Origin: Promicromonospora umidemergens
Lineage (GTDB): Bacteria > Actinomycetota > Actinomycetes > Actinomycetales > Cellulomonadaceae
Direction: 5' to 3'
Assembly: GCF_024171995.1 (NCBI RefSeq)
Contig: NZ_JAMTCT010000028.1
Coordinates: 1-64,000 of the forward strand
Length of the DNA: 64,000 nucleotides
The notes under the pieces were generated by a model. The model searched no databases and was not told the DNA's origin. It worked only from the letters and a program-made list of their open reading frames with translations. The position numbers were made by a program, and so were the translations under genes. Of the stretch, positions 42,343 through 64,000 are shown piece by piece (the stretch's first letter is position 1; every line of letters starts with the position of its first letter).

Positions 42343-43509
42343 ATGGACCGTATTCCCACCCCCGGGCGGACCTCACACCGCACCAGCAAGTGGCTCGTCG
42401 CGGCGGTCAGCGGCGTTCTTTCGCTACCTCTGGTCGCGTCAGGTGCGTCCGCTGCTCCAACGACCGACGAGTGCGCCTACGGGTACTCGGCCAGCCAGGC
42501 GGTGTTCTTCGGTGCGGGCGAGGCCGCCTCCGGTGTGCCTAACTATGACACCGGCGACGGATGCACCGTCATGGACGAGATCATGGCGGATGCGCCGTTC
42601 TCGACGCACGGCCAGTTCACGAGCACTGCCGTTCGAGTCGCGAGCGACCTGGAGCGGGCGGGTGTGCTCACGGACGCCGAGCGCTCCAGCATCTCGCGAG
42701 CCGCGGCGGCCTCGGAGGTGGGTGCGCCGCACCCCGTGACCGGGACCCGCTCGGTGGACCTGAGCAAGATCGGCCTGGTGGGCTTCACTGTCCGGGCCAC
42801 GATGCCGACGGATACGGAGGGGACCCTTGCGGCTCTCGCCGAGTGCGGCTTCCAGAACATGGAGCCGTCCGGACGCGTCGGCAGCTTCTACGGGTACACC
42901 TCCGCGGAGCTCGCGCCGCTGACGGACGCCGCAGGGCTGGCCGTACCGTCCATCGGTGTCAGCCAGGCGGACCTGGAGAACGACCTCGATGGCGTCATCG
43001 CGGAGGCGCAGGCGATCGGCGCCGAGTACGTGCGCATCTCGGGCTCCAGCAGCTGGACCCTCGCGGACTACTCCCGGACCGCCGCGGTCCTGAACGAGGT
43101 GGGCGCGACGCTCAAGGAGAACGGGATCACCGTCGCGTACCACAACCACGGGTACGAGTTCGAGACCGTCGAGAACGGCGTCAGCGGCTACGACGTCCTG
43201 GTCCGGGAGACCGACCCCGAGCTCGTCACCATGGAGCTCGACGTGTACTGGGCGGCCAGCGCCGAGGTCGGCGCCGTCGAGCTGTTCAACACCTACCCCG
43301 GCCGGTTCGAGCTGCTTCACCTCAAGGACATCGCGGCTGACGGCTCCTTCGCCGACGTGGGCGAGGGCACCATCGACTTCGCCGAGATCTTCGCCAGCGC
43401 CTCGCTCGCCGGGGTCCGGTACGGCTTCACGGAGCACGACCGGCCGAGCCCGGACGGCGTCACGTCGGCGTGCACCAGCATCGGCAACCTCGCCGAGCTG
43501 CGCTACTGA
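42343..43509 (+). CDS. exported xylose-isomerase-like TIM-barrel protein
   Basis: This 388-residue protein has a signal peptide (about 1-38, WLVAAVSGVLSLPLVASGASA). Residues 40-130 form a short unrecognised helical domain with two cysteines. From about 145 it is a sugar phosphate isomerase/epimerase (AP_endonuc_2) barrel: IGLVGFTVRATMP, YVRISGSSSW, VAYHNHGYEFE, TMELDVYW, LLHLKDI and FTEHD supply the metal-binding Glu/Asp/His set. Such barrels are normally cytoplasmic, so export is striking. Work on gut 3-keto-glycoside pathways places this fold beside DUF1080 and Gfo/Idh enzymes, as here. First gene of the carbohydrate locus. Confidence 0.8.
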   Translation: MDRIPTPGRTSHRTSKWLVAAVSGVLSLPLVASGASAAPTTDECAYGYSASQAVFFGAGEAASGVPNYDTGDGCTVMDEIMADAPFSTHGQFTSTAVRVASDLERAGVLTDAERSSISRAAAASEVGAPHPVTGTRSVDLSKIGLVGFTVRATMPTDTEGTLAALAECGFQNMEPSGRVGSFYGYTSAELAPLTDAAGLAVPSIGVSQADLENDLDGVIAEAQAIGAEYVRISGSSSWTLADYSRTAAVLNEVGATLKENGITVAYHNHGYEFETVENGVSGYDVLVRETDPELVTMELDVYWAASAEVGAVELFNTYPGRFELLHLKDIAADGSFADVGEGTIDFAEIFASASLAGVRYGFTEHDRPSPDGVTSACTSIGNLAELRY

Positions 43510-43514
43510 TCCAC

Positions 43515-43544
43515 GCTGCCGGTCCGCTCGCGCGGACCGGCAGC
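43515..43544. terminator. perfect hairpin between the two TIM-barrel genes
   Basis: Arms of 13 bp (gctgccggtccgc at 43515-43527; gcggaccggcagc at 43532-43544) enclose a 4-base loop, starting six bases after the stop of the exported isomerase-like gene. No T-run follows. It would end or dampen transcription into the next gene. Confidence 0.65.
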
Positions 43545-43625
43545 AGGGCCAGCACAGGAGAAAGGCCGGCCGGCCCGGACGGGCCGGGTGTCAGTGTCGA
43601 CATGCGCCAAAGAGGGAGAACCAAG

Positions 43626-44453
43626 GTGTGGACGCTCTCAGGATTTGCTGACGAGATATCGCCCGACTTCGAGACCCAGTGCAGGGTGGCGGCAGCGCTC
43701 GACCTGAAGTTCATCGAGCTGCGGAGCGCGTGGGACACCAACGTCCTCGATCTGGACGACGCGCAGCGTCAGCGCGTCAAGAGCCTGCTGCGGCAGTACG
43801 GGCTCGAGGTGTCGAGCATCGGGTCCCCGATCGGGAAGATCTTCGTGGACGAGGACTTCGACGCGCACCTCGAACGGATGCACCAGGCCGCGTACACGGC
43901 CGAGTACTTCCGGGCCCCCTACGTCAGGATCTTCTCGTTCTACGTGCGGCCGGGTACCGACCCGGACTCGTGCAGGGACGAGGTGCTGCGGCGCCTGTCC
44001 GCGCTGACCCGGCTGGCGACCGACGCCGGTGTCGTGCTGCTCCACGAGAACGAGCAGGGCGTCTACGGGGACACCCCGAAGCGGTGCCTCGACGTCGTGG
44101 AGTCCGTCGGGTCACCGCACCTGACCCTGGCCTGGGACCCGGCCAACTTCGTCCAGGTCGGCGTGCGTCCGTACACCGACGCCTACGAGCTCCTCCGCTC
44201 GCACATCGAGTACGTGCAGATCAAGGACACGAAGCGCAGTACGGGGGAGATCGTGCTCCCAGGGCTGGGCGACGGCGAGGTGCGCGACACGGTCCGAGCG
44301 CTCTGGGCCGACGGGTTCGACGGGTTCTTCTCGCTGGAGCCCCATCTCAGCGACGCCCACAGCCTGGGCGGCTTCTCCGGGCCGGAGCTGTTCACGGACG
44401 CCTGGGAAGCCTTCACCACCATGCTGCGAGCCGAGGGAGTGCCGTACACGTGA
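43626..44453 (+). CDS. cytoplasmic sugar phosphate isomerase/epimerase family protein
   Basis: This is a 275-residue xylose-isomerase-like TIM barrel without signal peptide. It opens VWTLSGFADEISPDF, with metal/substrate residues in LLHENEQGVYG, LAWDPANFVQ, YVQIKDTK and FFSLEPHL. This pattern is common among enzymes acting on 3-keto sugars, hydroxypyruvate or inosose-type ketones; the exact substrate is open. GTG 43626 has GGGAG eight bases upstream; ATG 43602 is in frame. The 3' end is 62 bases from the permease ATG, and a GTG overlapping its stop (44450) shows the reading frames abut. Confidence 0.85.
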   Translation: MWTLSGFADEISPDFETQCRVAAALDLKFIELRSAWDTNVLDLDDAQRQRVKSLLRQYGLEVSSIGSPIGKIFVDEDFDAHLERMHQAAYTAEYFRAPYVRIFSFYVRPGTDPDSCRDEVLRRLSALTRLATDAGVVLLHENEQGVYGDTPKRCLDVVESVGSPHLTLAWDPANFVQVGVRPYTDAYELLRSHIEYVQIKDTKRSTGEIVLPGLGDGEVRDTVRALWADGFDGFFSLEPHLSDAHSLGGFSGPELFTDAWEAFTTMLRAEGVPYT

Positions 44454-44515
44454 CCACCACCGACCCACCGCCCGCTTCGACGAACCCTCGAACGACCAGC
44501 ACGGAGGAGAGCCCG

Positions 44516-45418
44516 ATGACCACCACTGAGGACCTGCGGGCTGACTCGTCGGACGGCCCGCCCACCGCGACTGCCAGGGCCACGGCCAAGGACACGGCGG
44601 TCCCCGGGCGCGGGCGCACCTCGGCGTGGGGTCAGGCCGTCCGCCTGGCCGATGCGTCCTGGCGACCGCTCGTCGTCCTCGGCCTGTTGTTCGCCGGGTG
44701 GTGGTTCGTCGCGTGGCGAGAGCTCGTTCCCGCCTACCTCATCCCGTCTCCCGGAGCGGTGCTGGAGACCATGGTCAGTGAGCGGGCCATGCTGCTCGAG
44801 CACACCTGGGTGACCACGGTCGAGACCGTCCTCGGCTTCGTGATCGCCGCGGTGGTCGGTGTAGCGACGGCGGTGCTCCTGGTCTACTCGAAGACGGCCG
44901 AGAAGTCGTTGTACCCGCTGATCCTCTTCGCCCAGGTCATCCCGAAGATCGCCATCGCGCCGATCCTGGTGGTCTGGTTCGGGTTCGGGCTGACGCCCAA
45001 GATCATCCTCGCCGTGCTCATCGCGTTCTTCCCCGTCGTCGTCTCGGCGGTAGCGGGTCTGCGGTCGGTCGACCCGGAGCTGCTGGAGATGTCGGCGACG
45101 ATGGGCGCCTCGCGCTGGCGGACGTTCGTGAAGATCCGGTTCCCCGGTGCGCTCCCGCAGCTCATGTCGGGCCTCAAGGTCGCAGTGACGCTCGCCGTGG
45201 TGGGTGCGGTCGTCGGCGAGTTCGTCGGCGCCGACCGCGGTCTCGGGTTCGTGCTGCTCCTGGCGAGCGGCAACCTGGACGCGCCGCTGTTGTTCGCGGA
45301 CCTCATCCTCATGTCGCTCATCGGCGTCGTCCTCTTCGTGCTGGTCGAGCTGGCGGAGCACCTTCTCATCCCCTGGCACGCGTCGCGTCGGGGCAGCGTC
45401 GTGCTCGCGGCGTCCTGA
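44516..45418 (+). CDS. ABC transporter permease (SsuC/TauC type)
   Basis: This is a 300-residue inner-membrane permease with an unusually long polar N-terminus (about 50 residues), then six hydrophobic segments. The EAA loop is in SATMGASRWRTFVKIRFPGALPQLMSGLK (key GASRW and PGALPQ). It pairs with the following NMT1-like binding protein and ATPase to form an importer of the nitrate/sulfonate/thiamine-precursor class. ATG 44516 has GGAGGA upstream; GTG 44450 is an alternative. Confidence 0.9.
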   Translation: MTTTEDLRADSSDGPPTATARATAKDTAVPGRGRTSAWGQAVRLADASWRPLVVLGLLFAGWWFVAWRELVPAYLIPSPGAVLETMVSERAMLLEHTWVTTVETVLGFVIAAVVGVATAVLLVYSKTAEKSLYPLILFAQVIPKIAIAPILVVWFGFGLTPKIILAVLIAFFPVVVSAVAGLRSVDPELLEMSATMGASRWRTFVKIRFPGALPQLMSGLKVAVTLAVVGAVVGEFVGADRGLGFVLLLASGNLDAPLLFADLILMSLIGVVLFVLVELAEHLLIPWHASRRGSVVLAAS

Positions 45419-45509
45419 GCCCCACCCGCCCGAACCTCAGCTTCTCTCGTGTCACTTGCCTGTAGCCAACGGCCGCCCGTAGCGGCGGCACGAAAGAAAG
45501 GCCGTTCTC

Positions 45510-46514
45510 ATGCGTGCTGCAAAGCTCGGAGCTTCATTGGCAGTGGTCAGCCTGGCCGTGGCGGGGTGCTCGGCCGGAGGGACGCCCGACAGCGCCGCAG
45601 AGGGGAACGCCGCGGTGACCGTCACCCTGAACTGGGTCCCCTACGGCGAGCACGCCCCCCTCTACTACGGGGTCGAGCAGGGCTTCTTCGAGGAGGAGGG
45701 GATCGACCTCACGATCCAGCCGGGCAACGGATCGGGGAACACCGTCCAGCAGGTGGCACAGCGCAACACCGACTTCGGCTGGTCGGACACGCCGCCGCTG
45801 GCGAACGGGATCAGCTCGGGGATGCCGGTGCGGAGCGTGGGCGTCTTCCTCCAGACCGGGCCCAGCTCGGTCGAGTTCTTCGCCGACCAGGGCATCACGG
45901 AGCCCGCCGACCTTGTCGGAAAGACGGTCGGCGGCACACCGGGTGACGCCATGTACGGCACGTTCCCGGCCTGGCTGGAGCTCAACGGTGTCGACCCGGC
46001 TGACGTGAAGGTGGTCAACGTCGACGCGGCCGGCAAGATCGCCGCGCTGATCGAGGGCAAGGTCGACGCCATCCAGGGCTTCCACCACGACCAGGCCCCG
46101 ACCATCGAGAACCAGTCCGGCGAGGAGGTCGATGCCCTGCCGTTCGCCGACTTCGGGATGAACCTGCTCGGCACCGGCCTGGTGGCGAACGAGTCCATGA
46201 TCCAGGAGGACCCGGAGCTCGTCGAGGCCATGGTGCGCGCTACGTCGCGCTCGTTCCTCGAGGCGGCCGACAACCAGGATGCCGCGGTCAAGGCGATGGC
46301 GGCCGGCGCCGAGCAGGCCCCGGAGGAGAGCGTCCTGTCCGCTCAGCTCGCCGCCACGATCGAGCTGCTCAACCTGGAGGAGGCGCCGGTGCCTGGTACC
46401 AACACCGAGGAGCAGTGGACCGACACCCTCACGTTCCTCTCCGAGAACACGGATTTCGACGGTGAGGTCGCGCCGACGGAGTACTGGGACGCCACGTTCG
46501 GTGAGGACCTCTGA
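45510..46514 (+). CDS. ABC transporter substrate-binding lipoprotein (NMT1/SsuA-like)
   Basis: This is a 334-residue lipoprotein (lipobox V-A-G-C in SLAVAGCSAGG). The mature part has the NMT1/THI5-like fold: VTLNWVPYGEHAPLYYGVEQGFFEEEGIDL, then PGNGSGNTVQQVAQRNTDFGWSD, KTVGGTPGDAMYGTFPAWL and VDAIQGFHHDQ. This family binds thiamine pyrimidines, sulfonates, riboflavin and similar small molecules. The ligand here is not predictable; sugar-locus context suggests something linked to glycoside use, such as an aglycone. AAAGAAAGG precedes the ATG. Confidence 0.9.
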   Translation: MRAAKLGASLAVVSLAVAGCSAGGTPDSAAEGNAAVTVTLNWVPYGEHAPLYYGVEQGFFEEEGIDLTIQPGNGSGNTVQQVAQRNTDFGWSDTPPLANGISSGMPVRSVGVFLQTGPSSVEFFADQGITEPADLVGKTVGGTPGDAMYGTFPAWLELNGVDPADVKVVNVDAAGKIAALIEGKVDAIQGFHHDQAPTIENQSGEEVDALPFADFGMNLLGTGLVANESMIQEDPELVEAMVRATSRSFLEAADNQDAAVKAMAAGAEQAPEESVLSAQLAATIELLNLEEAPVPGTNTEEQWTDTLTFLSENTDFDGEVAPTEYWDATFGEDL

Positions 46515-47332
46515 TGGCAGCCACAGTTCTCGACGGAGCGACGACGCCGTCCGTGGCGACGGACCCGATCATCGAGGTCGAGAACCTCACGATGCGGTTC
46601 AGGTCGAAGCGGTCGGAGACCGTGGCCCTCGACGATGTCTCGTTGACGGTCCGCGCCGGCGAGTTCGTCACCATCGCGGGCCCCTCCGGCTGCGGGAAGT
46701 CGACGCTGCTGAAGCTCGTCGCGGGCCTCACACCCGGCTTCGAGGGAAAGGTGCACCTGTACGGTGCGCCGGTCACCCGGCCACAGCGTGACATCGGGTT
46801 CGCGTTCCAGCGGTCGGCCCTGCTCGAGTGGCGAGGAGTGCGCAAGAACATCCTCCTCCAGGCCGAGATGCGAGGCATGGACCGGCGGCTGGCGCAGCGG
46901 CGCGCAGACCACCTCATCGAGCTCACCGGACTGACCGGGTTCGAGAAGGCGCTGCCGCACGAGCTGTCCGGAGGCATGCAGCAACGGGTCGCGCTGTGCA
47001 GGGCACTCCTGCACGAACCGCGGGTGCTGCTCATGGACGAGCCGTTCGGAGCACTGGACGCACTGACCCGCGAGCAGATGAACGTCGAGATGAACCGGAT
47101 CTGGCGCGAGACCGGGACGACGGTCGTCCTGGTCACCCACTCGGTTCCAGAGGCGGTGTACCTGGGCAGCCGGATCGTGGTCATGAGCCCACGACCCGGC
47201 CGGATCGTGGAGACCTTGGAGCCCGGCCTGCCGGACGAGCGTGACTACGGCACCACCCTGAGGGACCCCCGCTTCACCCGCGCGGCAGAACGGATCCGGG
47301 GCCTGCTCGGGGCCACGCACACACCCGAGTAG
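46514..47332 (+). CDS. ABC transporter ATP-binding protein (SsuB/TauB type)
   Basis: This is a 272-residue ATPase for the NMT1-type importer. It has Walker A GPSGCGKST, Q-loop FAFQRSALLEW, signature LSGGMQQRVALCRAL, Walker B VLLMDEPFGALDALT and the H-loop in VTHSVPEA. The start codon shares one base with the stop of the binding-protein gene (TGATG), so the transporter genes are tightly coupled. Confidence 0.93.
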   Translation: MAATVLDGATTPSVATDPIIEVENLTMRFRSKRSETVALDDVSLTVRAGEFVTIAGPSGCGKSTLLKLVAGLTPGFEGKVHLYGAPVTRPQRDIGFAFQRSALLEWRGVRKNILLQAEMRGMDRRLAQRRADHLIELTGLTGFEKALPHELSGGMQQRVALCRALLHEPRVLLMDEPFGALDALTREQMNVEMNRIWRETGTTVVLVTHSVPEAVYLGSRIVVMSPRPGRIVETLEPGLPDERDYGTTLRDPRFTRAAERIRGLLGATHTPE

Positions 47333-47423
47333 ACGTACGGGCCGCCACCGACCACCGCGGCCACCGCGGACCGGTCGGCGCGCCTCATCACCCCGCGGAC
47401 CCGAAGCCCTTCCAGGAGGATCC

Positions 47424-48449
47424 ATGAGTACGAGCAGCCTCGGTGTCGGCATCGTCGGCATGGGCAACATCGGCACCATGCACGCGCGGGCCCTGCGAGA
47501 CCTGGGCGAGCGTGCCGCGCTCGTGGCGTACAGCAGCTCGCGCGGCGCGACCCGGGAGGCGCTCGCCGGCTGGGAGGCGGCCCACCTCACGCCGGAGCAG
47601 GTGATGAACCACCCGGACGTCGACGTCGTGGCGATCTGCTCACCCAGCGGCACGCACGCGCAGCTGGCGCTCGCGGCACTGGAGGCAGGGCGGCACGTCG
47701 TCGTCGAGAAGCCGCTGGCGCTGAGCGTCGAGCACGCCGTGAGCATCGCCCGCGTCGCCCGGGAGCGCGGGCTCATGGTCTCGACCATCTCCCAACGGCG
47801 GTTCGAGCCCGAGCACGAGCGGCTCAAGAGCGCCCTGGACGCCGGCGCGCTCGGCGAGATCCGGCTGGCGACGACGCACGTCCACTGGTTCCGCGACGAC
47901 GACTACTACGCCGCCGCGAGCTGGCGGACCACCGTCGAGCAGGGCGGGGGATCCCTGGTGAACCAGGGCGTCCACAACGTCGACCTGCTCCGCTGGCTCT
48001 GTGGCCCGGTCGAGTCAGTGACCGCGCAGTACGGCACCCTTGCGCACGCGATGGAGGCCGAGGACACCACGGTCGCCACCCTGCGTTTCGCGTCCGGGGC
48101 ACTCGGCGTCGTGACCACCACGACCGCGACGCCGCCGGGACACCCGGCGACCCTCTCCGTGCACGGCTCGGGCGGCACGGTGGAGCTCGCTCAGGGGGAG
48201 GTGCGCCGCTGGGAGGTGCCGGGGGTCCCGGCGCCGCCGTCGGGGACTGCCGCGACCGGGGCCGCGGACCCGCTCGCCATCGGGCACGGCGGCCACCTCG
48301 CCCAGTGGGACAGGATCCTCTCCGCTCTGGAGCGCTCCTCGCCTGTTCCGGTGGACGTCGACGACGCCGTCCAGACGGTCCGGCTCCTGTGCGCGATCTA
48401 TGCGGCCGCGTCGACCGGAGAGGTGGTGCGACCAGGCCATCTGACCTGA
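47424..48449 (+). CDS. Gfo/Idh/MocA-family oxidoreductase
   Basis: This is a 341-residue NAD(P)-dependent sugar dehydrogenase-like protein. The Rossmann motif is VGIVGMGNIGTMHARAL; the family lysine is in VVEKPLAL. In the C-terminal domain the expected catalytic region reads GGGSLVNQGVHNVDLLRWL, with the D-x-x-x-H/N-H-x-x-D type pattern kept in VHNVD. Members oxidise or reduce C3 of sugars in trehalose (ThuB) and 3-keto-glycoside pathways, among many others. It carries no export signal. AGGAGG is upstream of ATG 47424. It lies between the importer and the large exported dehydrogenase. Confidence 0.88.
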   Translation: MSTSSLGVGIVGMGNIGTMHARALRDLGERAALVAYSSSRGATREALAGWEAAHLTPEQVMNHPDVDVVAICSPSGTHAQLALAALEAGRHVVVEKPLALSVEHAVSIARVARERGLMVSTISQRRFEPEHERLKSALDAGALGEIRLATTHVHWFRDDDYYAAASWRTTVEQGGGSLVNQGVHNVDLLRWLCGPVESVTAQYGTLAHAMEAEDTTVATLRFASGALGVVTTTTATPPGHPATLSVHGSGGTVELAQGEVRRWEVPGVPAPPSGTAATGAADPLAIGHGGHLAQWDRILSALERSSPVPVDVDDAVQTVRLLCAIYAAASTGEVVRPGHLT

Positions 48450-48491
48450 TCTCCCAGCACCAAGACATTTCACCTACACGAAGGAGTGTTC

Positions 48492-51251
48492 ATGATGTCT
48501 GCATCACGCCACAGAGCCGTGGCGGCCATGATCGGGATGGCCGTCGCCGTCGGGTCCCTGGCAACCGCCTCGGTCTCCGCAGCACACCCTGGGGAGGGCG
48601 ACCACGCCGACTCGTCCAGCTTCGAGAAGATCCCGCTGGTGACGGAAGGCCTCAGCGACCCGTTCGAGCTGGACGTCGCCGACGACGGCCGGGTCGTCTA
48701 CATCGAGCGGACCGGCGCGGTGAAGGTCCTCGAGCAGGACACGTTGCGCCAGACCACCGCACTGGACTTCGGGTACTCCCTCGACCTCCTGACCCAGTCG
48801 GACGGTCTGCTGGGTCTGACGCTGGACAACGACTTCGCCGAGAACGGGTGGTTGTACCTGCTGTGGAGCGACCCGGACGTCGCCAAGATGAACCTCTCCC
48901 GGTTCACCATGGGGCCGGACAACACGATCGACCCGGCGTCGGAGGAGCGCCTGCTCGACTACACGATCTGGCGGGGCGAGGGTCGCGCGAACTCGCACAT
49001 GGGCGGCTCCCTGGCGATGGGCCCCGACGGCAACCTCCACGTGGCCACCGGTGACAACGCCGACCCGTTCGACCAGAGCGGCTACACGCCGATCGACGAG
49101 CGCGAGGGTCGCCGTGCGTGGGACGCGCAGGGCACGTCCGCCAACACCGACGACCTGCGCGGCAAGGTGCTGCGGATCCACCCGGAGGACGACGGGACGT
49201 ACACGGTTCCCGAGGGCAACCTGTTCGCGCCGGGCACGGAGGGCGCTCGCCCCGAGATCTACGGGATGGGCTTCCGGAACCCGTTCCGCATCACCGTCGA
49301 CCCCGAGACGAGCGCGGTCCTCGTCGGTGACTACGGGCCCGACGCCCGGGTGGCGAATCCGCTGCGCGGACCGGAGGGCATGGTCGAGCTCATCCGGATG
49401 ACCGAGCCGGGCAACCATGGCTGGCCGTACTGCCACGCGAACAACCAGGCGTACATCGACTACGACTTCGCCACCGGCGAGTCCGGCGAGGCGTTCGACT
49501 GCGCCAACCCGGTCAACGAGTCCCCGAACAACACGGGCCTGCGCGAGCTGCCGCCCAGCCAGCTGCCCCTCGTCTGGTACGGCTACGGCGAGTCGCCGGA
49601 GTTCCCGGAGCTCGCGTCGGGCGGTGCCGCCCCGATGGCCGGCCCGGTCTACCGGTACGACGCCGAGAACCCCGTCAAGACGAAGTTCCCCGAGTCCTAC
49701 GACGGCCACTGGTTCGTCTCCGAGTACGCGCGCAACTTCTACAAGGTGCTGTCGATCGACGAGGCCACCGGTGACCTCCTCTCGATCGACCCGTTCCTCC
49801 CCGAGGAGAGCTTCGTCTCGCCGTTCGAGGCGGAGTTCGGGCCCGACGGTTCGCTGTACATCATGGACTTCGGCAGCGGACGAGGCGCCGGGCGAGGCAG
49901 CACCAACACCGACGCGGGCATCTACCGCGTCGACTACGTCGCCGACGGCCGGCGCCCGATCTCGTCGTTCACGCCCGACGTCGAGTCCGGCTCGGCCCCG
50001 CTCACGGTCAGCTTCGACGGCGAGGCCAGCCACAGCCCGGACGGGCTCGACATCACGTATGCCTGGGACTTCGAGAACGACGGCGTCGTGGACTCGACCG
50101 AGGTCAGCCCCGTGCACACCTACGAGGAGCGCGGACAGTTCTCCGCGCGACTGACCGTCACCGACAGTGACGGCCTCACCGGTGTAGCGGTCCAGAAGAT
50201 CACGGCGGGCAACACCCGTCCGGAGGTCTCCTTCGACACGCCGGCCGACGGCGGCTTCGCCGAGCTGGGGGACACCGTCCCGTACTCGGTCGACGTCGTC
50301 GACGCCGAGGACGGTTCCACCGCTGCCGGAACCATCGACTGCAGCCGCGTGACCGTCAACACCCAGCTGGGGCACGACACGCACGCCCACCCGCTGGACA
50401 ACTACACGGGCTGCTCCGGGTCCGTCTTCCTCGACCCCGCCGACCACGGGGTCGGGCAGAACGTCTACGGGGTGCTCGGCGCCGGCTACCAGGACCTGGG
50501 CACCGAGGGCGTTCCCGAGCTCACCGGCCAGGACCGCATCAGGCTGCAGGTCAAGGACAAGGAGGCCGAGTTCTTCAGCGAGGCCTCCGGCGTGACCGTC
50601 GCTGACGACTCCTCGGCACGAGGCGGTCGCCTGGTCAGCGACGTTGACGACGGTGACTGGATCGCGTTCGAGCCGGTCGACCTGACCGGGATCACCGGGC
50701 TCACCCTCGGAGTGGTGCCCGGCGCCGCCGGTGCCACCGTCGAGGTGCGCACGGGCAGCCCGACCGGACCGAAGATCGGCCAGGTGAAGGTCGGCGCGGC
50801 GGCCGCCGCCGGACAGGTCGTCTCGCCCAGCATCGACATCGAGGGGCAGAGCGGAACCACCACCCTCTATCTCGTGGTCTCCGACAGGGGACAGTCGGGC
50901 AGCACGGAGCAGGCACAGGGAGCGGACGACGCGCTGGCACTCGACTGGCTCGTCTTCCACGGCCGGGGAGTCGCCGACGCGACCGCCCCGGTGGTCCAGG
51001 CGGAGGCCAGCCGCACCGGGGGCCCGGACAACCTCTCGGTCGAGCTGTCGGGCTCCGCCGTCGCGCCGGAGGACCGGGAGATCACGTCCTACCTCTGGGA
51101 CCTCGGTGACGGCACGACGTCGGAAGGCCAGGAGGTCACCCACGAGTACTCGGCCCCCGGTCGGTACACCGCCCGGCTGATCGCCACGGACAGCGAGGGG
51201 ACGAGGGACTGGGCCACCGTGGAGCTCGTCGTCGCCGACAGCGGCCGATGA
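48492..51251 (+). CDS. exported glucose/sorbosone dehydrogenase-like protein with PKD and CBM6-like domains
   Basis: This 919-residue protein has a signal peptide (about 1-36). Residues about 50-480 form a six-bladed GSDH (PQQ-type soluble sugar dehydrogenase) propeller: LVTEGLSDPFELDVADDGRV, SDGLLGLTLDNDF, HMGGSLAMGPDGNLHVATGD, MGFRNPFRI. Then come a first PKD domain (ISYAWDFENDG-like, about 490-580), a domain with LGHDTHAHP (about 590-680), a CBM6/35-like beta-sandwich (about 690-815) and a second PKD (EITSYLWDLGDGTTSEG) at the end. Whether PQQ is bound is not shown; no PQQ synthesis gene is in the window. AAGGAG precedes ATG 48492/48495. Paralogue of the gene at 60827. Confidence 0.85.
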   Translation: MMSASRHRAVAAMIGMAVAVGSLATASVSAAHPGEGDHADSSSFEKIPLVTEGLSDPFELDVADDGRVVYIERTGAVKVLEQDTLRQTTALDFGYSLDLLTQSDGLLGLTLDNDFAENGWLYLLWSDPDVAKMNLSRFTMGPDNTIDPASEERLLDYTIWRGEGRANSHMGGSLAMGPDGNLHVATGDNADPFDQSGYTPIDEREGRRAWDAQGTSANTDDLRGKVLRIHPEDDGTYTVPEGNLFAPGTEGARPEIYGMGFRNPFRITVDPETSAVLVGDYGPDARVANPLRGPEGMVELIRMTEPGNHGWPYCHANNQAYIDYDFATGESGEAFDCANPVNESPNNTGLRELPPSQLPLVWYGYGESPEFPELASGGAAPMAGPVYRYDAENPVKTKFPESYDGHWFVSEYARNFYKVLSIDEATGDLLSIDPFLPEESFVSPFEAEFGPDGSLYIMDFGSGRGAGRGSTNTDAGIYRVDYVADGRRPISSFTPDVESGSAPLTVSFDGEASHSPDGLDITYAWDFENDGVVDSTEVSPVHTYEERGQFSARLTVTDSDGLTGVAVQKITAGNTRPEVSFDTPADGGFAELGDTVPYSVDVVDAEDGSTAAGTIDCSRVTVNTQLGHDTHAHPLDNYTGCSGSVFLDPADHGVGQNVYGVLGAGYQDLGTEGVPELTGQDRIRLQVKDKEAEFFSEASGVTVADDSSARGGRLVSDVDDGDWIAFEPVDLTGITGLTLGVVPGAAGATVEVRTGSPTGPKIGQVKVGAAAAAGQVVSPSIDIEGQSGTTTLYLVVSDRGQSGSTEQAQGADDALALDWLVFHGRGVADATAPVVQAEASRTGGPDNLSVELSGSAVAPEDREITSYLWDLGDGTTSEGQEVTHEYSAPGRYTARLIATDSEGTRDWATVELVVADSGR

Positions 51252-51269
51252 GCTGACCGCATCGGCACC

Positions 51270-55767: not shown

Positions 55768-55799
55768 GCCTCTAGTCAATCATGGCCAACGAAGTTGCG

Positions 55800-55836: not shown

Positions 55837-55842
55837 CATTAC

Positions 55843-57381: not shown

Positions 57382-58355
57382 GAGGACGATCGGCCCTGTC
57401 AGGGCCGGCACTGCGAATGGGCGGCCTCGTGCTCGCCCTGGTCCTGCTGTGCGTGGTGGGGATCGTCACCACGGGTGGCCGGTTCGCCTCGGTCGGCAAC
57501 ATCACCACGCTGCTCGCCCTTGCGGCGACGACCGGCGTGGTGAGCATCGGCATGACGTTCGTCATCACCGCCGGCGGCATCGACCTGTCGGTCGGCTCGG
57601 TGCTCGGCCTGGCGACCGTCTGGGCGTCCACGCTGTCCACCCAGTACCTGGCGGAGGACTACGGCTGGTGGGTCATCGTGCTGACCGCGCTGGCCGTCGG
57701 CCTGGCCGCCGGCTTGGTGAACGGCGCCCTCGTCGCGTACGGCAAGGTGCCGGCCTTCATGGCCACCCTCGCCATGCTGGCGGCCGCGCGAGGCCTCGCA
57801 GAGCTCATCGCCGGCCGGCAGACGCAGCTCGTCGAGGTGGACCCGTTCCTCGACACGTTCCGCGCCGACGTGCTCGGCCTGCCGATGATCGTGTGGATCT
57901 TCGTCGTGGTCGCCGTCGCCGGCTGGTTCCTGCTGAACCGCACCACGTTCGGCCGACGCACCGTCGCGGTGGGCGGCAACCCGGAGGCCGCGCGCCTCGC
58001 GGGCATCAAGATCAAGCGGCACACCCTCTACCTGTACGGGCTCGCCGGCCTGACGGCGGGTATCGGCGCCGTGATGGCGTTGGCCCGCACCACTGCCGGC
58101 TCCTCGACGAACGGAACGCTCCTCGAGCTGGACGTCATCGCGGCGGTCGTCGTCGGCGGCACCCTGTTGGCCGGCGGCCGCGGCACCATCACAGGCACCG
58201 TCCTGGGCGTCCTGATCTTCTCGACGCTCACCAACGTGTTCATCCTGAACAACATCGACAGCTCGGTCCAGGCGATCACCAAGGGCGTGATCATCGTGGG
58301 CGCCGTGCTGCTGCAGCAGTGGTTCGCCGCGCGCGAGAAGGCCACGAGCACCTGA
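57378..58355 (+). CDS. sugar ABC transporter permease (RbsC type)
   Basis: This is a 325-residue inner-membrane protein with about eight to ten hydrophobic segments. The family signatures are VSIGMTFVITAGGIDLSVGSVLGL near the N-terminus, VGGNPEAARLAGI, and VVGGTLLAGGRGTITGTVLGVL near the C-terminus. GTG 57378 overlaps the ATPase stop. It partners with the double ATPase and the binding lipoprotein that follows. Confidence 0.93.
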   Translation: MRGRSALSGPALRMGGLVLALVLLCVVGIVTTGGRFASVGNITTLLALAATTGVVSIGMTFVITAGGIDLSVGSVLGLATVWASTLSTQYLAEDYGWWVIVLTALAVGLAAGLVNGALVAYGKVPAFMATLAMLAAARGLAELIAGRQTQLVEVDPFLDTFRADVLGLPMIVWIFVVVAVAGWFLLNRTTFGRRTVAVGGNPEAARLAGIKIKRHTLYLYGLAGLTAGIGAVMALARTTAGSSTNGTLLELDVIAAVVVGGTLLAGGRGTITGTVLGVLIFSTLTNVFILNNIDSSVQAITKGVIIVGAVLLQQWFAAREKATST

Positions 58356-58437: not shown

Positions 58438-59493
58438 ATGACTTCTTCAACAGCAGTGCGTACGCGCAGGGTTTCCGGCGCCTTCATCGCGGCGGCCTGC
58501 GCCGCGCTCGTCGTCACCGGCTGCGTCAGCAACGAGCCGCGCGACGAGGAGACGGCGGCTGCCGGCCCCGTCACCACGACGGACAACGACGAGCCCGGCG
58601 ACGAGGTCGTCATCGGCTTCTCCGCCCCGGCGGCCGACCACGGCTGGATGGGCGCCATCACCTCGGCGGCCGAGGCCGAGGCCGAGAAGTACGAGGACGT
58701 GGAGCTCCGCGTCGCCGAGGGCACCAACGACGTGAACGTGCAGATCAGCCAGATCGAGGGCTTCATCACCGATGAGGTGGATGCCATCGTGCTGCTGCCG
58801 TTCGACGGCGCCGCGCTCACCGCGGTCGCGCTCGAGGCGATGGAGGCGGGCATCCCGGTCATCAACGTGGACCGCGAGTTCACCAGCCCGTTCGCCGCCC
58901 GCACCACGGTGCTGGGCGACAACTACGGCATGGGCGTGAGCGCGGGCACCTACATCTGCGAGCAGATCGGCGACAACAAGGACGCCGTGGTCGCCGAGAT
59001 CGCCGGCATCGACGCCCTGCCGCTGACCACGGACCGTAGCGACGGCTTCAAGGACGCGCTGGAGGACTGCGGGCTCGACGTCGACGCCCGTGTCGCCGCC
59101 GACTTCACGGTCGAGGGTGGCGAGGAGGCGACCGCGAACCTGCTGTCCGCCGAGCCCGAGATCGACGCCATCTGGAACCACGACGACGACCAGGGCGTCG
59201 GCGTGCTCGCGGCCATCGAGAACGCCGACCGCGACGAGTTCTTCCTCGTGGGTGGCGCCGGGTCGACCAACATGATGGAAGAGATCCAGTCCGGCGACAG
59301 CGTGGTGCAGGCGACGGTCGTCTACCCGTCCACGCAGGCGGCCGACGGCATCAAGCTCGCCCGGCTGATCGCCCAGGACAAGACGATCGGGGACCTGGCA
59401 TCGATCGGCGTGCCGCGCACGATCCAGCTCCACGCACCCGTCGTGACGGCGGACAACGTCGAGGAGTACCTCCCCATCGGCTTCGAGTCCTGA
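58438..59493 (+). CDS. sugar-binding lipoprotein (periplasmic-binding-protein 4 / RbsB type)
   Basis: This is a 351-residue lipoprotein (lipobox V-T-G-C in ALVVTGCVSN). After an acidic linker the RbsB-like fold begins: VVIGFSAPAADHGWMGAITSAAEAEAEKY, VQISQIEGFITDEVDAIVLLPFDG, then VDREFTS, SDGFKDAL and HDDDQGVGVLAAIE. Aromatic and acidic pocket residues (W, D, R) suit a monosaccharide or keto-sugar. AAGGGAG lies seven bases before the ATG. Third gene of the RbsABC-type importer. Confidence 0.92.
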   Translation: MTSSTAVRTRRVSGAFIAAACAALVVTGCVSNEPRDEETAAAGPVTTTDNDEPGDEVVIGFSAPAADHGWMGAITSAAEAEAEKYEDVELRVAEGTNDVNVQISQIEGFITDEVDAIVLLPFDGAALTAVALEAMEAGIPVINVDREFTSPFAARTTVLGDNYGMGVSAGTYICEQIGDNKDAVVAEIAGIDALPLTTDRSDGFKDALEDCGLDVDARVAADFTVEGGEEATANLLSAEPEIDAIWNHDDDQGVGVLAAIENADRDEFFLVGGAGSTNMMEEIQSGDSVVQATVVYPSTQAADGIKLARLIAQDKTIGDLASIGVPRTIQLHAPVVTADNVEEYLPIGFES

Positions 59494-59566
59494 CGCGTGA
59501 CGCATCGGACGACGCCCGCTGGGGCGTGCAACACGGCGGTGAATCGAGAGTGGGGGGAGGCGCGGT

Positions 59567-60745
59567 ATGAGCAGCGGTGAGAACGAGCTCGGGGTCGGCA
59601 TGGTCGGCTACGCGTTCATGGGGGCAGCACACTCGCAGGCCTGGCGCACGGCGCCGCGGTTCTTCGACCTGGCTCTGGCGCCGCGCATGCGCGCGGTGGC
59701 CGGGCGGGACGAGACCGCGGTCCGTGCGGCGGCCGACCGGCTCGGCTGGGACGAGGCGGTCGTCGGGTGGCGAGAGCTGCTGACGCGGGACGACATCGGG
59801 CTGATCGACATCTGCACGCCGGGCGACACGCACGCCGAGATAGCGGTGGCGGCGCTGGAGGCGGGCAAGCACGTCCTGTGCGAGAAGCCGCTGGCGAACA
59901 GCGTGGCCGAGGCGGAGAAGATGGTGGCCGCCGCGGACGCGGCGGCGGAGCGGGGCGTGCGCGCGATGGTGGGGTTCACCTACCGACGCGTCCCCGCCAT
60001 CGCCCTGGCGCGCCAGCTCGTGGAGCAGGGGCGGATCGGTGAGGTCCGGCACGTGCGCGCGCAGTACCTGCAGGACTGGATCGCCGACCCCGAGGCGCCG
60101 ATGTCATGGCGCCTGGACAAGCAGAAGGCGGGCTCCGGTGCGCTGGGCGACATCGGTGCCCACATCGTGGACCTGGCCAAGTTCATCACCGGTGAGTCGC
60201 TCACCGGGGTGAGCGGGCTGCTCGAGACCTTCGTGCACGAGCGGCCGGAGGCGTCGTCGTCCTCCGGCCTGTCGGGGGTGGCCGACGGCGGCCGCACGGG
60301 TAAGGTCACGGTGGACGACGCCGCGGTCTTCTTCGGGCGGCTGTCCGGCGGCGGTCTGGCGACCTTCGAGGCGACCAGGTTTGCCTGGGGCCGCAAGAAC
60401 GCTATCCGGCTGGAGGTGAACGGATCGAAGGGCTCGCTCGCTTTCGACTTCGAGGACATGAACCTCTTGCACTTCTTCGACGCCACGGACGATGTGACGA
60501 CCGCCGGCTTCCGCCGGATCGTCGTCACCGAGCCGGAGCACCCCTACGGCGGTGCCTGGTGGCCTGCGGGACACGGGCTCGGCTACGAGCACGCGTTCAC
60601 GCACCAGGTCGTCGACCTGATGGGCGACCTGGCAGCGGGACGGCAGCCGACGCCGTCGTTCACCGATGGCCTGGAGGTCCAGCGGGTGCTGGACGCCGTC
60701 GAGCGCAGCGCGGCCGGCGGAGGGGGGTGGGTCCCGCTGCCGTGA
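59567..60745 (+). CDS. Gfo/Idh/MocA-family oxidoreductase (ThuB-like)
   Basis: This is a 392-residue NAD(P)-dependent sugar dehydrogenase-like protein: VGMVGYAFMGAAHSQAWR (dinucleotide fold), CEKPLAN with the family lysine, GFTYRRVPAIALARQL, then SGALGDIGAHIVDLAKF with D-x-G-x-H-x-x-D, the catalytic pattern. It belongs to the same broad group as ThuB, which makes or uses 3-keto sugars. It is directly downstream of the sugar importer and before the ThuA-containing exported protein, so ThuA and ThuB functions are adjacent. No signal peptide is visible. GGGGGAGG precedes the ATG. Confidence 0.9.
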   Translation: MSSGENELGVGMVGYAFMGAAHSQAWRTAPRFFDLALAPRMRAVAGRDETAVRAAADRLGWDEAVVGWRELLTRDDIGLIDICTPGDTHAEIAVAALEAGKHVLCEKPLANSVAEAEKMVAAADAAAERGVRAMVGFTYRRVPAIALARQLVEQGRIGEVRHVRAQYLQDWIADPEAPMSWRLDKQKAGSGALGDIGAHIVDLAKFITGESLTGVSGLLETFVHERPEASSSSGLSGVADGGRTGKVTVDDAAVFFGRLSGGGLATFEATRFAWGRKNAIRLEVNGSKGSLAFDFEDMNLLHFFDATDDVTTAGFRRIVVTEPEHPYGGAWWPAGHGLGYEHAFTHQVVDLMGDLAAGRQPTPSFTDGLEVQRVLDAVERSAAGGGGWVPLP

Positions 60746-60751
60746 ACCACA

Positions 60752-60784
60752 GGCTCAGGGCAGGGAGAAGACCTGTCCTGAGCC
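60752..60784. terminator. hairpin before the ThuA-GSDH gene
   Basis: Arms of 13 bases (ggctcagggcagg at 60752-60764; cctgtcctgagcc at 60772-60784) pair with one G-U, around a 7-base loop, just after the oxidoreductase stop. It may lower, rather than stop, transcription into the next gene; no separate promoter is evident. Confidence 0.5.
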
Positions 60785-60826
60785 CGCACTGCACTAGTAC
60801 TGACCCGACTCAATGAGGAGCTCCAG

Positions 60827-63800
60827 GTGAGAAACGTGCACCGAACCCGCCGCGTTCTGCGGCCGGTGGTCGCGGCAGCAGCCATGACCGCGCTAGGTAT
60901 CCCCATGGCGCTGACGTCCGCGGCTCAACCGGCCGCCGCACCGAACCAGGGCGTGCAGGCCGAGGTTGCCGCCGCACCAGGCGATGCAGCAGCCGAGCCG
61001 TTCGACACTCTCGTCTTCTCGAAGACGGCGGGTTTCCGGCACGGCTCGATCCCCGCAGGGATCGAGACGATCACGCAGCTCGGCGCGGCGAACGACTTCA
61101 CGGTCACCGCCACGGAGGACGCCGGCGTCTTCACCGACGAGGGCCTCGCCGACTACGAGGTGGTCGTCTTCCTGTCCACCACGGGCGACGTGCTCAACGG
61201 CGAGCAGCAGGCAGCGTTCGAGCGGTACATCCAGGGTGGCGGGGGCTACGCGGGCATCCACGCGGCGTCCGACACGGAGTACGAGTGGCCCTGGTACGGC
61301 GAGCTGGTCGGGGCGTACTTCAGCTCGCACCCGCAGAACCAGGACGCCACCGTCAAGGTCGAGGACCACGCGCACAGCTCCACCGCGCACCTGCCGGACC
61401 GCTGGGACCGCCACGACGAGTGGTACAACTTCCGGACCAACCCGCGCGACGATGTGCACGTCCTGGCTTCCCTGGACGAGTCCACCTATGACGCCGGCAC
61501 AGGCGCGATGGGTGCCGATCACCCGATCGCCTGGTGCCAGGCCTACGACGGGGGCCGGTCCTGGTACACCGGCGGTGGCCACACCGACGCCTCGTACACC
61601 GAGCCGGAGTTCGTCGAGCACCTGCTGGGCGGTCTGCAGACCGCGGCAGGCGTCGTCGACTCGGACTGTGCCGCGACGCAGAGCAACAGCTACGAGATGG
61701 TGCCGCTCGACGAGGACACCGCCAACCCGATGATGCTGGACGTGGCCGATGACGGCAGCGTCTTCTACGTCGAGCGCGACGGCCGCGTCCAGACGATCGA
61801 CCCCGAGTCGAACACCACGACCACGGCGATGACGCTGCCGGTCACCCAGTCCAACGAGGACGGGCTGACCGGTGTCGTGCTCGACCCTGACTTCGCGTCC
61901 AACGGGTGGGTCTACCTGTTCTGGTCCCCGCAGGACGTCGGCGACGACGGTCCGCACAACCGGGTCTCGCGCTTCGACTACGACGCGGCCTCCGGCACGA
62001 TCGACCCGGCCACCGAGGAGACCGTGCTGATCATCCCGACGCAGCGCGAGACGTGCTGCCACGCGGGCGGTGACATGGTCTTCGATGCTGACGGCAACCT
62101 GTACGTGGCCACCGGCGACAACACCAACCCGTTCGAGTCCCAGGGGTACGCGCCGCTGGACGAGCGGGCCGGGCGGGAGAACTACGACTCGCAGCGCACG
62201 TCGGCCAACAGCAACGACCTGCGGGGCAAGGTGCTGCGGATCACGCCGCAGGACGACGGCTCGTACACCATCCCCGAGGGCAACATGTTCGCTCCGGGCG
62301 AGGCGGAGACGCTGCCCGAGATCTATGCGATGGGCTTCCGCAACCCGTTCCGGATCGGCGTCGACCCGGGATCAGGCAACGTGCTCGTGGCCGACTACGG
62401 TCCGGACGCGGGGGCGGCCAGCGCCGCTCGCGGGCCGGCCGGTACGGTCGAGTGGAACGTCGTGAGCGAGCCGGGCTTCTACGGCTGGCCGTACTGCACG
62501 GGGGCGAACACCGACTACCGCGCCTACGACTTCGCCACGGGGCAGTCCGGGGCGGCGTTCGACTGCGCAGGCGGTCCGGTGAACGACTCGCCGAACAACA
62601 CCGGCATCACGCAGCTGCCGCCGGCCGTCGAGGCGGAGGTCTGGTACGGGTACGGGACCAACCCGCTGTTCCCCGAGATCGGCGGCGGCGGCGCCCCGAT
62701 GGGTGGGCCGGTCTACTCCTACGACCCGGAGCTGGAGTCCGACGTCAAGTGGCCGGCCTACTGGGACGGCAAGGCGCTGTTCGGTGAGTGGAACCAGGGG
62801 CGGATGTACTCGTTCCAGCTCGCCGGCGAGCAGCGGGACGAGCTCGTGGACATCAACCGGGCCCTGCCCGGGATCTTCGACCCGGAGGCCGGGTTCGACC
62901 GGCCGATGGACTTCGACTTCGGACCCGACGGTGCGCTGTACGTCATCGACTGGGGCTCCGGCTTCGGCGGGAACAACGACAGCTCGGGCGTGTACCGGGT
63001 CAACTACGTCAAGGGCGACCCGGCACCCCTCGCACAGGCCTCTGCCGACGTGACCGACGGAGCGGCCCCACTGACCGTGCAGTTCTCGTCGGAGGGCACC
63101 CGCCACCCGGCCGGGGAACCGATCAGCCTGCAGTGGACCTTTGGCGACGGGTCGGAGCCGAGCACCGAGGCGAACCCGACCCATACGTACATGGAGAACG
63201 GCCGCTACACCGCCCAGCTCGTCGCCACCGACCCCGCGGGGCAGACCGGGGTGGCGAACGTGACGATCGTGGTCGGCAACATCGCCCCCGAGGTGACGAT
63301 CACCTTCCCCGACAACGGTGGCTTCTTCGAGTGGGGCGACCAGGTGCGCTACGAGATCGCGGTCGACGACCCCGACGGCGACGTGAGCTGCGAGAACGTC
63401 TCGCTGTTCACCTCGCTCGGCCACGACTCCCACGCCCACCCGTTCGACGAGCTGACTGGCTGTGAGGGCGTCATCCAGACCGCCCGGGACGAGGGCCACG
63501 GCATCGAGTCGAACATCTTCTGGGTGATCGAGGCGTTCTACACCGACGACGGTGGCGCGGCGGGCGCACCGCTGACGGCGACCGACCTGCAGGTGCTGCA
63601 GCCCAAGCTGGTCCAGTCGGAGTTCTTCACCGGAACGGGCCGCGTCGATGGCATCGGTGACGCTACCGGTGACCCGGGCGTCCAGATCGAGGAGACGGGC
63701 GACACCGCCGGTGGCGGGCAGAACATCGGGTACATCGAGCCCGGTGACTACTGGGCGCACGAGCCGGTGGGCCTCGCCGGTGTCGACGCGATCTCGCTGC

Positions 63801-64000
63801 GCGCCGCCTCCGGCGTCGACGGCGGGGAGGTCTCGGTGCGCTGGGACGCGCCGGACGGTCCAGAGATCGGCCGTATCACGGTGCCGGGCACTGGCGGCTG
63901 GCAACAGTACGTGGATGCCGGTACCGAGCTGACCGACGTGCCGTCCGGCTCGGGTTCGCTGCACTTCGTCCTGCTCTCCGGCGGCGTCAACGCCAACTGG
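60827..64000 (+). CDS. exported ThuA / GSDH-like / PKD / CBM6-like protein (3' end outside window)
   Basis: The frame is open from GTG 60827 to the last base; 1058 residues are visible. GAGGAG lies six bases upstream. Signal peptide about 1-37. A ThuA-like domain follows (about 60-280: TLVFSKTAGFRHGSIPAGI, GGYAGIHAASDTEYEW, HPIAWCQAYDGGRSWYTGGGH). Then come a GSDH-type propeller (about 295-725, SNEDGLTGVVLDPDF, CCHAGGDMVFD, MGFRNPFRI), a PKD domain (about 730-820, LQWTFGDGSEPSTEANP), a domain with LGHDSHAHP (about 825-930) and a CBM6-like domain running to the edge. ThuA family members act in trehalose and related disaccharide use through 3-keto forms. Apart from the added ThuA part it is a paralogue of the protein at 48492. 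Confidence 0.85.
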   Translation, partial: MRNVHRTRRVLRPVVAAAAMTALGIPMALTSAAQPAAAPNQGVQAEVAAAPGDAAAEPFDTLVFSKTAGFRHGSIPAGIETITQLGAANDFTVTATEDAGVFTDEGLADYEVVVFLSTTGDVLNGEQQAAFERYIQGGGGYAGIHAASDTEYEWPWYGELVGAYFSSHPQNQDATVKVEDHAHSSTAHLPDRWDRHDEWYNFRTNPRDDVHVLASLDESTYDAGTGAMGADHPIAWCQAYDGGRSWYTGGGHTDASYTEPEFVEHLLGGLQTAAGVVDSDCAATQSNSYEMVPLDEDTANPMMLDVADDGSVFYVERDGRVQTIDPESNTTTTAMTLPVTQSNEDGLTGVVLDPDFASNGWVYLFWSPQDVGDDGPHNRVSRFDYDAASGTIDPATEETVLIIPTQRETCCHAGGDMVFDADGNLYVATGDNTNPFESQGYAPLDERAGRENYDSQRTSANSNDLRGKVLRITPQDDGSYTIPEGNMFAPGEAETLPEIYAMGFRNPFRIGVDPGSGNVLVADYGPDAGAASAARGPAGTVEWNVVSEPGFYGWPYCTGANTDYRAYDFATGQSGAAFDCAGGPVNDSPNNTGITQLPPAVEAEVWYGYGTNPLFPEIGGGGAPMGGPVYSYDPELESDVKWPAYWDGKALFGEWNQGRMYSFQLAGEQRDELVDINRALPGIFDPEAGFDRPMDFDFGPDGALYVIDWGSGFGGNNDSSGVYRVNYVKGDPAPLAQASADVTDGAAPLTVQFSSEGTRHPAGEPISLQWTFGDGSEPSTEANPTHTYMENGRYTAQLVATDPAGQTGVANVTIVVGNIAPEVTITFPDNGGFFEWGDQVRYEIAVDDPDGDVSCENVSLFTSLGHDSHAHPFDELTGCEGVIQTARDEGHGIESNIFWVIEAFYTDDGGAAGAPLTATDLQVLQPKLVQSEFFTGTGRVDGIGDATGDPGVQIEETGDTAGGGQNIGYIEPGDYWAHEPVGLAGVDAISLRAASGVDGGEVSVRWDAPDGPEIGRITVPGTGGWQQYVDAGTELTDVPSGSGSLHFVLLSGGVNANW

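Follow-up and report, generated by a model that had tools for sequence, protein, structure and literature searches.

Known Routes of Oxidation-Driven Glycoside Cleavage

Oxidation-driven cleavage of glycosides, as described in the papers cited here, is the work of sets of separate smaller enzymes that act inside the cell or in the periplasm. A gene cluster in the 6.6-Mb draft genome of Promicromonospora umidemergens appears to encode a secreted counterpart built from large multidomain proteins. The window, i.e., the whole 64,000-base stretch analyzed, comprises bases 1–64000 of a 73,532-base contig (C28), and the cluster occupies its right-hand part from position 42343 onward. We read the cluster as an extracellular system that would oxidize glycosides, cleave them, import the released sugar, and finish its conversion in the cytosol, a reading to which we give a little more than even credence.

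The O-glycoside pathway of Agrobacterium tumefaciens uses GlycDH, AtOGE, AtHYD, and a reductase (PMC10628242). AtOGE (8bvk) is a beta-eliminase of 3-keto glucosides with a metal site formed by H132, D163, H189, and, weakly, E233, and with H134 as the catalytic residue (PMC10628242). The Promicromonospora locus would share with this pathway, as far as it is described there, oxidation at C3, a metal-dependent barrel eliminase, a hydratase-type barrel, and a Gfo/Idh set; its barrels are homologous to 8bvk, 8tcd/8tcs, and 8ro4. It differs in that two of the barrels look exported and in that the candidate oxidants are exported propellers, in contrast to the flavoenzyme of Agrobacterium.

Proteins with a DUF1080 domain have been tied to 3-ketotrehalose in Bacteroides (BT2157), and in Caulobacter (LacABC with CCNA_01705) one is proposed to act on 3'-ketolactose, at a site proposed to be periplasmic (PMC9007349). 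In both cases a DUF1080 cleaving protein is coupled to an oxidizing system, as would be the case here. The DUF1080 domain described there stands alone, whereas that of the present locus belongs to an actinobacterial 1014-residue fusion of PA14, propeller, carbohydrate-binding module (CBM), and DUF1080. The levoglucosan pathway of Bacillus smithii (LgdA, B1, B2, and C) proceeds by oxidation, elimination, hydration, and reduction (PMC7676230). One Gfo/Idh enzyme of the locus resembles levoglucosan dehydrogenase; the abstract describing that pathway, however, names neither an exported propeller nor ThuA nor DUF1080. Lastly, the GSDH domains of the locus have the fold of soluble pyrroloquinoline quinone (PQQ) glucose dehydrogenase and aldose sugar dehydrogenase (1cq1, 3das), but they lack the R-x-R motif and the genome lacks PqqE.

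A Proposed Extracellular Oxidize-and-Cleave Locus

The cluster encodes, among others, two large exported fusion proteins. The first, called K3H here (51454–54498), bears out the exported DUF1080 protein of the preliminary description: DUF1080 (PF06439) is matched over positions 1–187 of 187 with 126.9 bits, far above the cut-off of 26.8, which places the protein in the family. The same chain holds a propeller that scores 25.7 bits for DUF7133, under the cut-off of 27, and that takes a GSDH-like fold in the predicted model, with Foldseek matches to 2ism, 7cdy, and 3a9g. The second, an exported ThuA–dehydrogenase-like fusion beginning at 60827, is larger than had been described. It combines a ThuA domain (272.5 bits; cut-off 33.4) with a GSDH domain in 1868 residues and is cut by the window edge, and the remainder of the contig was read as well (L005). 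The further exported GSDH-like protein, the two Gfo/Idh enzymes, the two importers, and the ROK repressor gene of the same description are also present, as are its two barrels, with the amendment that the barrel at 42343 itself looks exported. Export is predicted throughout by a simple signal-sequence rule and inspection by eye rather than by a trained predictor.

These parts suggest the following sequence of events. Outside the cell, the propellers, GSDH-like or, in K3H, DUF7133-like, would oxidize plant glycosides or oligosaccharides at the sugar ring, with the CBM6 and CBM35 modules holding the substrate. The activated bond would then be broken by a cleaving domain that is part of that chain or encoded by the adjacent gene. 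DUF1080 may cleave by hydrolysis and the exported barrels by beta-elimination, and ThuA may also be a cleaver. The oxidized or unsaturated sugar that is released would enter through the Rbs-type importer, and a cytosolic hydratase-like barrel and Gfo/Idh enzymes would turn it into an ordinary hexose or pentose. ROK would repress the gene set. The anatomy supports the extracellular picture well. Of the claim that glycosides are oxidized and cleaved outside, the predicted export of cleaving and propeller proteins, the importers, and the cytosolic Gfo/Idh enzymes and barrels have held up, and a PQQ-dehydrogenase step has not. A secreted, multidomain, CBM-bearing form that is apparently laterally mobile would add a soil route for plant glycosides with bulky aglycones.

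The features of the locus within the window are as follows.

42343–43509, + strand: exported xylose-isomerase-like TIM barrel of module A, candidate 3-keto-glycoside beta-eliminase (Pfam AP_endonuc_2, 43.6 bits; signal peptide by rule)
43602–44453, + strand: cytosolic TIM barrel, start codon inferred (AP_endonuc_2, 101 bits for the open reading frame 43470–44453)
44516–45418, + strand: NMT1-type ABC importer permease, start inferred, 44450 also possible (Pfam BPD_transp_1, 110.7 bits)
45510–46514, + strand: NMT1-type solute-binding lipoprotein (Pfam NMT1, 161 bits; lipobox)
46514–47332, + strand: NMT1-type importer ATPase (Pfam ABC_tran)
47424–48449, + strand: GFO1, cytosolic Gfo/Idh/MocA oxidoreductase (PDB 8tdi match, 5e-21)
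48486–51251, + strand: GSDH1, exported GSDH-like propeller with PKD and CBM6 (Pfam; paired R-x-R absent, His and RN motif kept)
51454–54498, + strand: K3H, exported PA14, propeller, CBM6/35, and DUF1080 of the 3-keto-disaccharide hydrolase family, 1014 residues (Pfam; predicted model)
54586–55779, − strand: ROK-family repressor (Pfam ROK, 199 bits)
55843–57381, + strand: Rbs-type sugar importer ATPase with two ABC domains, start inferred (domain scan)
57378–58355, + strand: Rbs-type sugar importer permease, start inferred (Pfam BPD_transp_2, 130 bits)
58438–59493, + strand: Rbs-type sugar-binding lipoprotein (Pfam Peripla_BP_4, 139.6 bits; lipobox)
59567–60745, + strand: GFO2, cytosolic Gfo/Idh/MocA oxidoreductase, levoglucosan-dehydrogenase-like (PDB 4h3v, 6e-183; 6a3f, 8e-91)
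60827–64000, ending at contig position 66433, + strand: exported ThuA-GSDH-PKD-CBM6-PKD-(DUF1349/GH43_C2)x2 protein, 1868 residues (Pfam; predicted model, Foldseek)

The NMT1-type importer thus spans about 44.5–47.3 kb and the Rbs-type importer about 55.8–59.5 kb. Past the window follow, in order, a small exported protein anchored in the membrane at its C terminus, the cytosolic barrel TIM2, the exported 889-residue GSDH3, which is the second GSDH-PKD-CBM6 protein of the cluster, and the Tat-exported barrel TIM3.

Two Modules and Their Distribution

The cluster unites two modules that stand apart in relatives. Module A consists of a DUF1080 protein, an exported barrel, and a GSDH protein; module B consists of ROK, the Rbs-type importer, a Gfo/Idh enzyme, the ThuA–GSDH protein, and a hydratase-like barrel. 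In two genomes of the same genus (L119, L120), a second DUF1080 protein, K3H2, the exported barrel, and GSDH1 are encoded consecutively, with the NMT1-type importer running divergently about 1.9 kb upstream. The barrel and GSDH1 are also found together in another genus (L125), in a stretch without a K3H match. For module B, the order ROK, Rbs-type importer, GFO2, ThuA–GSDH, anchored protein, and TIM2 is kept in L124 and in Cellulosimicrobium terreum (L146); GFO2 to TIM3 is kept in L121 and L122, and permease to TIM2 in L126. These gene orders in relatives show that modules A and B adjoin in the window while the K3H2 of the same genome sits on another contig (C1).

The closest kin of K3H among named organisms are in Promicromonospora and Myceligenerans. 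The gene set proposed for the locus was sought in other actinobacteria and is conserved there: K3H followed by the Rbs-type importer, GFO2, and ThuA–GSDH was kept in all seven loci compared (L022–L028). Likewise, K3H proteins sharing 85% identity or more occur in 14 other genomes; in 13 of these the ThuA–GSDH gene lies 6.5–7.4 kb from K3H, and in the remaining genome (G007) the two are on separate contigs.

Could the modules have met by chance, as two unrelated catabolic loci, the left half (the barrels, NMT1-type importer, GFO1, and GSDH1) acting on one compound and the right half on another? No left half was found beside K3H in L022–L028, and NMT1-type importers are not typically tied to sugars, both of which would fit. 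The rows of L119 and L120 argue the other way: the exported barrel and GSDH1 adjoin K3H2 there, with the NMT1-type importer close by, which suggests that both halves carry the same chemistry. A chance meeting appears improbable. Within the oxidize-and-cleave reading, the NMT1-type importer (44450–47332) may serve as an importer of the aglycone.

Neither protein is peculiar to the source bacterium. Among 150 genomes of the family, at E 1e-30, K3H has a match in 52, ThuA–GSDH in 73, and both in 49; with near-full-length matches the figures are 46, at least 53 (a lower bound, with the source genome included), and 41, all of these being genome-level counts that ignore kinship. Taken by genus, 8 carry both, 1 only K3H, 4 only ThuA–GSDH, and 12 neither (E 1e-30; p = 0.004), so that eight of the nine genera with K3H also carry ThuA–GSDH. 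Across the phylum, 396 sampled genomes (the source genome among them) yield, at a cut-off of 1e-60, 26 with a match to the ThuA–GSDH query and 12 with one to K3H. One distant member of the phylum (G455:C5:120765–126588) has two ThuA–GSDH matches in tandem. In three genomes (G001, G002, and G007), matches at 77–82% identity lie in open frames of merely 1079–1186 residues, a shortness that points to variable or missing C-terminal modules.

Fusions of Propellers with Cleaving Domains

Further proteins in the source genome link the same domains in other ways. On contig C7, ThuA, GSDH, PKD, and DUF1080 are joined in a single 1342-residue protein (L054 8475–12503). A second ThuA–GSDH protein adjoins a barrel and a sugar importer, and a further fusion combines PA14, DUF7133, CBM35, and DUF1080. 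In family f21 of the phylum, the ThuA–GSDH query matches eight genomes, seven of them in the GSDH part; of these seven, two have a DUF1080 match within the same open frame (G305, G422) and three have one adjacent (G348, G510, G545). Propellers and cleaving domains thus travel together in several arrangements, and the fusions of ThuA, GSDH, and DUF1080 support their joint action.

A different propeller partners ThuA in a 1920-residue exported fusion on contig C1 (L056 7696–13458). Its galactose-oxidase-like propeller matches solved galactose oxidases with a best E of 5e-42, and in an alignment with 9g8h and 2wq8 it keeps the Cys, Tyr, Tyr-His, and His positions at FC, RWY, YHS, and VTH. We take these positions to be the copper-radical site of galactose oxidase. 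Open reading frames beside this gene look like an aldehyde dehydrogenase and a sugar importer, as called by eye from the sequence.

The surroundings of the triple fusion on contig C7 provide a lead on the oxidant. The gene directly before it (L054 7345–8412) encodes a multicopper oxidase that carries a Tat-like signal and is a possible electron acceptor. Directly after it lies a 649-residue exported protein with OmpL47-type Ig-like repeats (L054 12500–14449).

The Propellers and the PQQ Question

The Pfam GSDH matches reach 95–122 bits and cover just about 230 of the 332 positions of the model. In the predicted structure of the ThuA–GSDH protein, the GSDH domain lies nearest in fold to soluble PQQ glucose dehydrogenase (Foldseek, 1cq1, E 1e-20). 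Mean pLDDT is 69.1 for this structure and 75.8 for that of K3H, and given this middling quality the predicted models are used for fold class only. The conserved His and the RN motif of the GSDH domains are present in all 22 aligned rows.

The R-x-R motif before the last blade, whose arginines we assume to be PQQ ligands, is absent from all seven exotic propellers compared (six from the source genome and one from Gracilibacillus), and it is present in both canonical GSDH proteins of the source genome and in five PDB alignments. None of the 21 readable rows among the 22 of alignment A1 has it (row L116 was unmatched by the pattern), and the P0004-type rows keep one Arg. PqqE was found above the cut-off in none of 59 genomes, i.e., the source and 58 kin. 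The best match in the source genome has 42 bits against a cut-off of 381, and weak matches occur in 58 of the 59 genomes and likewise in all 14 controls. The PqqE model itself works, having found the gene in 11 of the 396 phylum genomes. With R-x-R missing and the genome lacking PqqE, the proposal that the exotic propellers are PQQ sugar dehydrogenases is rejected as stated, and the oxidant is probably not standard PQQ. The missing PQQ site thus poses a clear cofactor question.

One way to save a quinoprotein would be PQQ scavenged from soil neighbors. The nearest fold is indeed that of a PQQ enzyme, two canonical GSDH genes sit in the same PqqE-less genome, and PqqE does occur in 2 (G338, G545) of the 26 phylum genomes with a ThuA–GSDH match. 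The motif count cuts against this, with R-x-R in none of the seven exotic propellers compared with both canonical proteins and the five PDB alignments, and we regard scavenging as improbable. A purely binding role for the propellers is possible.

Barrels and Oxidoreductases

The barrels and Gfo/Idh enzymes provide a link to 3-keto chemistry. The barrel at 42343 matches 8tcs, 8tcd, and 8tct with E values of 4e-25 to 3e-27, and AtOGE (8bvk) at 3e-14. The best matches of the two exported barrels to 8tcs/8tcd are 2.7e-27 and 1.8e-25, and TIM3 matches 8bvk at 2.4e-8; both are thus closer to 8tcs/8tcd than to AtOGE. We take 8tcd, 8tcs, and 8tct to be 3-keto-pathway enzymes, the 8tc and 8tdi structures presumably being those of the 2024 Nature work on a 3-keto glycan pathway. 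The metal ligands appear in the pattern HxH...D...H...E in the barrel at 42343, with spacings of 2/33/26/38 there and 2/35/31/44 in TIM3, compared with 2/31/26/44 in AtOGE, a match judged by order and spacing alone. AtOGE homology and the pattern of metal ligands and catalytic His, as seen in order and spacing, make both exported barrels candidate beta-eliminases.

In the cytosol, TIM2 matches 8ro4, a 2-hydroxy-3-keto-glucal hydratase, over query residues 19–330 (122.7 bits, E 2.2e-34); its top match is 2zds, labeled just "putative DNA-binding protein." GFO1 matches the glucuronide-3-dehydrogenase 8tdi at 5e-21, with other Gfo/Idh chains ranking higher. GFO2 scores 371 bits for the NCBIfam levoglucosan dehydrogenase family NF052479, the cut-off for which is 650, and is thus kin of this family and not a member. 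Homology of the barrels and Gfo/Idh enzymes to solved 3-keto-pathway enzymes lends moderate support to the 3-keto chemistry first proposed for the locus; for C3 as the position of oxidation, homology is the whole of the argument.

A Published beta-Xylosidase of the Same Architecture

In the open-licence literature searched, which leaves out the majority of subscription journals, one paper (PMC4562250) names both ThuA and GSDH; it offers the best experimental link for the locus. Dou et al. 2015 describe a secreted complex that removes xylose from a taxane and was purified from corn cob cultures of Cellulosimicrobium cellulans F16 (PMC4562250). Its active subunit, Xyl_S, was assigned to M768_06655 by mass spectrometry and contains ThuA, GSDH, PKD, CBM6, and PKD in order; it was published as a beta-xylosidase, a hydrolase that possibly represents a new glycoside hydrolase (GH) family, and the authors were unable to say which domain is catalytic (PMC4562250). 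Xyl_S releases aglycones from beta-xylosides and beta-glucosides, and for 10-DAXP and the pNP- and MU-glycosides the main text reports measurement only of aglycone or reporter release (PMC4562250). The subunit had a kcat of 0.061 per second, compared with 13.2 for the complex, whose proteins included laccases (PMC4562250).

The window protein has the same five-domain order and differs by its two C-terminal DUF1349/GH43_C2 stretches, which are absent from the five domains given in the paper. A window-type protein with the ThuA-GSDH-PKD-CBM6-PKD order is also present in G080, from the genus group of Cellulosimicrobium terreum. After removal of 40 residues from the N terminus and 500 from the C terminus, its computed mass is 120.7 kDa, compared with the 118.3 kDa measured for Xyl_S; the two other ThuA–GSDH proteins of that genome compute to 141 and 154 kDa. 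Xyl_S may therefore be an ortholog of the window-type protein, judging from architecture, mass, and genus rather than sequence comparison, and by analogy it suggests beta-xylosides and beta-glucosides as natural substrates.

A bolder proposal, speculative and with a modest chance of being right, is that the ThuA–propeller proteins are redox glycosidases. The propeller would oxidize the sugar with a non-PQQ cofactor or metal and ThuA or DUF1080 would break the bond within one secreted chain, much like an extracellular two-domain version of GH4 oxidation–elimination. Xyl_S would then be the first member with an activity, its sugar product being keto or unsaturated, or re-reduced on the enzyme. 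More generally, a secreted oxidize-and-cleave system would give a testable explanation for a published beta-xylosidase of no known family, and candidates for stripping sugars off drug-like glycosides.

The Xyl_S data are compatible with oxidation–elimination and equally with plain hydrolysis, and, as Xyl_S was purified natively, a copurified enzyme is conceivable. The locus might encode ordinary extracellular glycoside hydrolases, with ThuA and/or DUF1080 cleaving unoxidized glycosides and the propellers and CBMs merely binding carbohydrate. We consider this unlikely, although much of what weighs against an oxidative system favors it. R-x-R has been lost from the propellers, and the Foldseek matches include the Hedgehog-interacting protein (HHIP), which we take to be nonenzymatic. 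No electron acceptor was added in the Xyl_S assays, though a plain dehydrogenase would need one (PMC4562250). Not every DUF1080 protein is a 3-keto hydrolase, an endo-xanthanase of this architecture having been named (PMC9007349). Other points count against the oxidative reading without bearing on hydrolysis in particular. PqqE is missing from the source genome and the kin surveyed. The cytosolic barrel at 43602–44453 does not keep the AtOGE-type ligands, having ENE for HxH and Q for His. In L030–L040 (Nocardioides, Oerskovia, Cellulosimicrobium, and Micromonospora), K3H occurs without the rest of module B within up to 10 kb on each side. The co-occurrence counts by genome leave kinship aside, and the open-licence literature searched yielded no experiments on the window proteins. 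Plain hydrolysis, for its part, fits poorly with the 3-keto-pathway kinship of barrels and Gfo/Idh enzymes of the locus, with the fusion, elsewhere in the genome, of ThuA to a copper oxidase that looks intact, and with a GSDH His and RN motif kept in 22 of 22 rows.

A Transferred Copy in Gracilibacillus lacisalsi

A K3H with about 79% identity is found in Gracilibacillus lacisalsi of the Bacillota (L029 9971–13018). Its GC content is 57.1%, whereas its neighbors have 33.5–40.1%. The genes before it encode an Rbs-type importer, a barrel, and a Gfo/Idh enzyme that shares 52% identity with GFO2, all with native base composition; on the same strand, at a distance of 13.7 kb, is a ThuA–GSDH gene with 39.9% GC. 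In the tree, this K3H falls among actinobacterial copies with support of 94/92, slightly under the tool's mark. The tree and the structure alignment omit L040 (a split match) and L026 (a near repeat); alignments A1 and A2 have 22 and 20 rows, with further rows dropped to limit redundancy. Assembly contamination was considered and rejected: the gene is embedded in a 513-kb contig, the intergenic DNA flanking it on either side is AT-rich, and it has a Bacillus-like signal sequence. K3H was transferred from Actinomycetota into a matching Gracilibacillus sugar locus, and its arrival among partners of the same kinds speaks for their acting jointly with K3H.

Minor Features

A defense-system library gave zero matches for the two proteins tried. 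The small anchored protein past the window (L005 5717–6301) has a His at or near its predicted mature N terminus, after an A-x-A motif, and an N-terminal His is found in all eight copies read (HGG in seven and HSG in one). A His at or near the mature N terminus, followed by further His and acidic residues, is also seen in the GSDH proteins at 48486–51251 and L005 7531–10200. In both kinds of protein this residue could bind copper or another metal.

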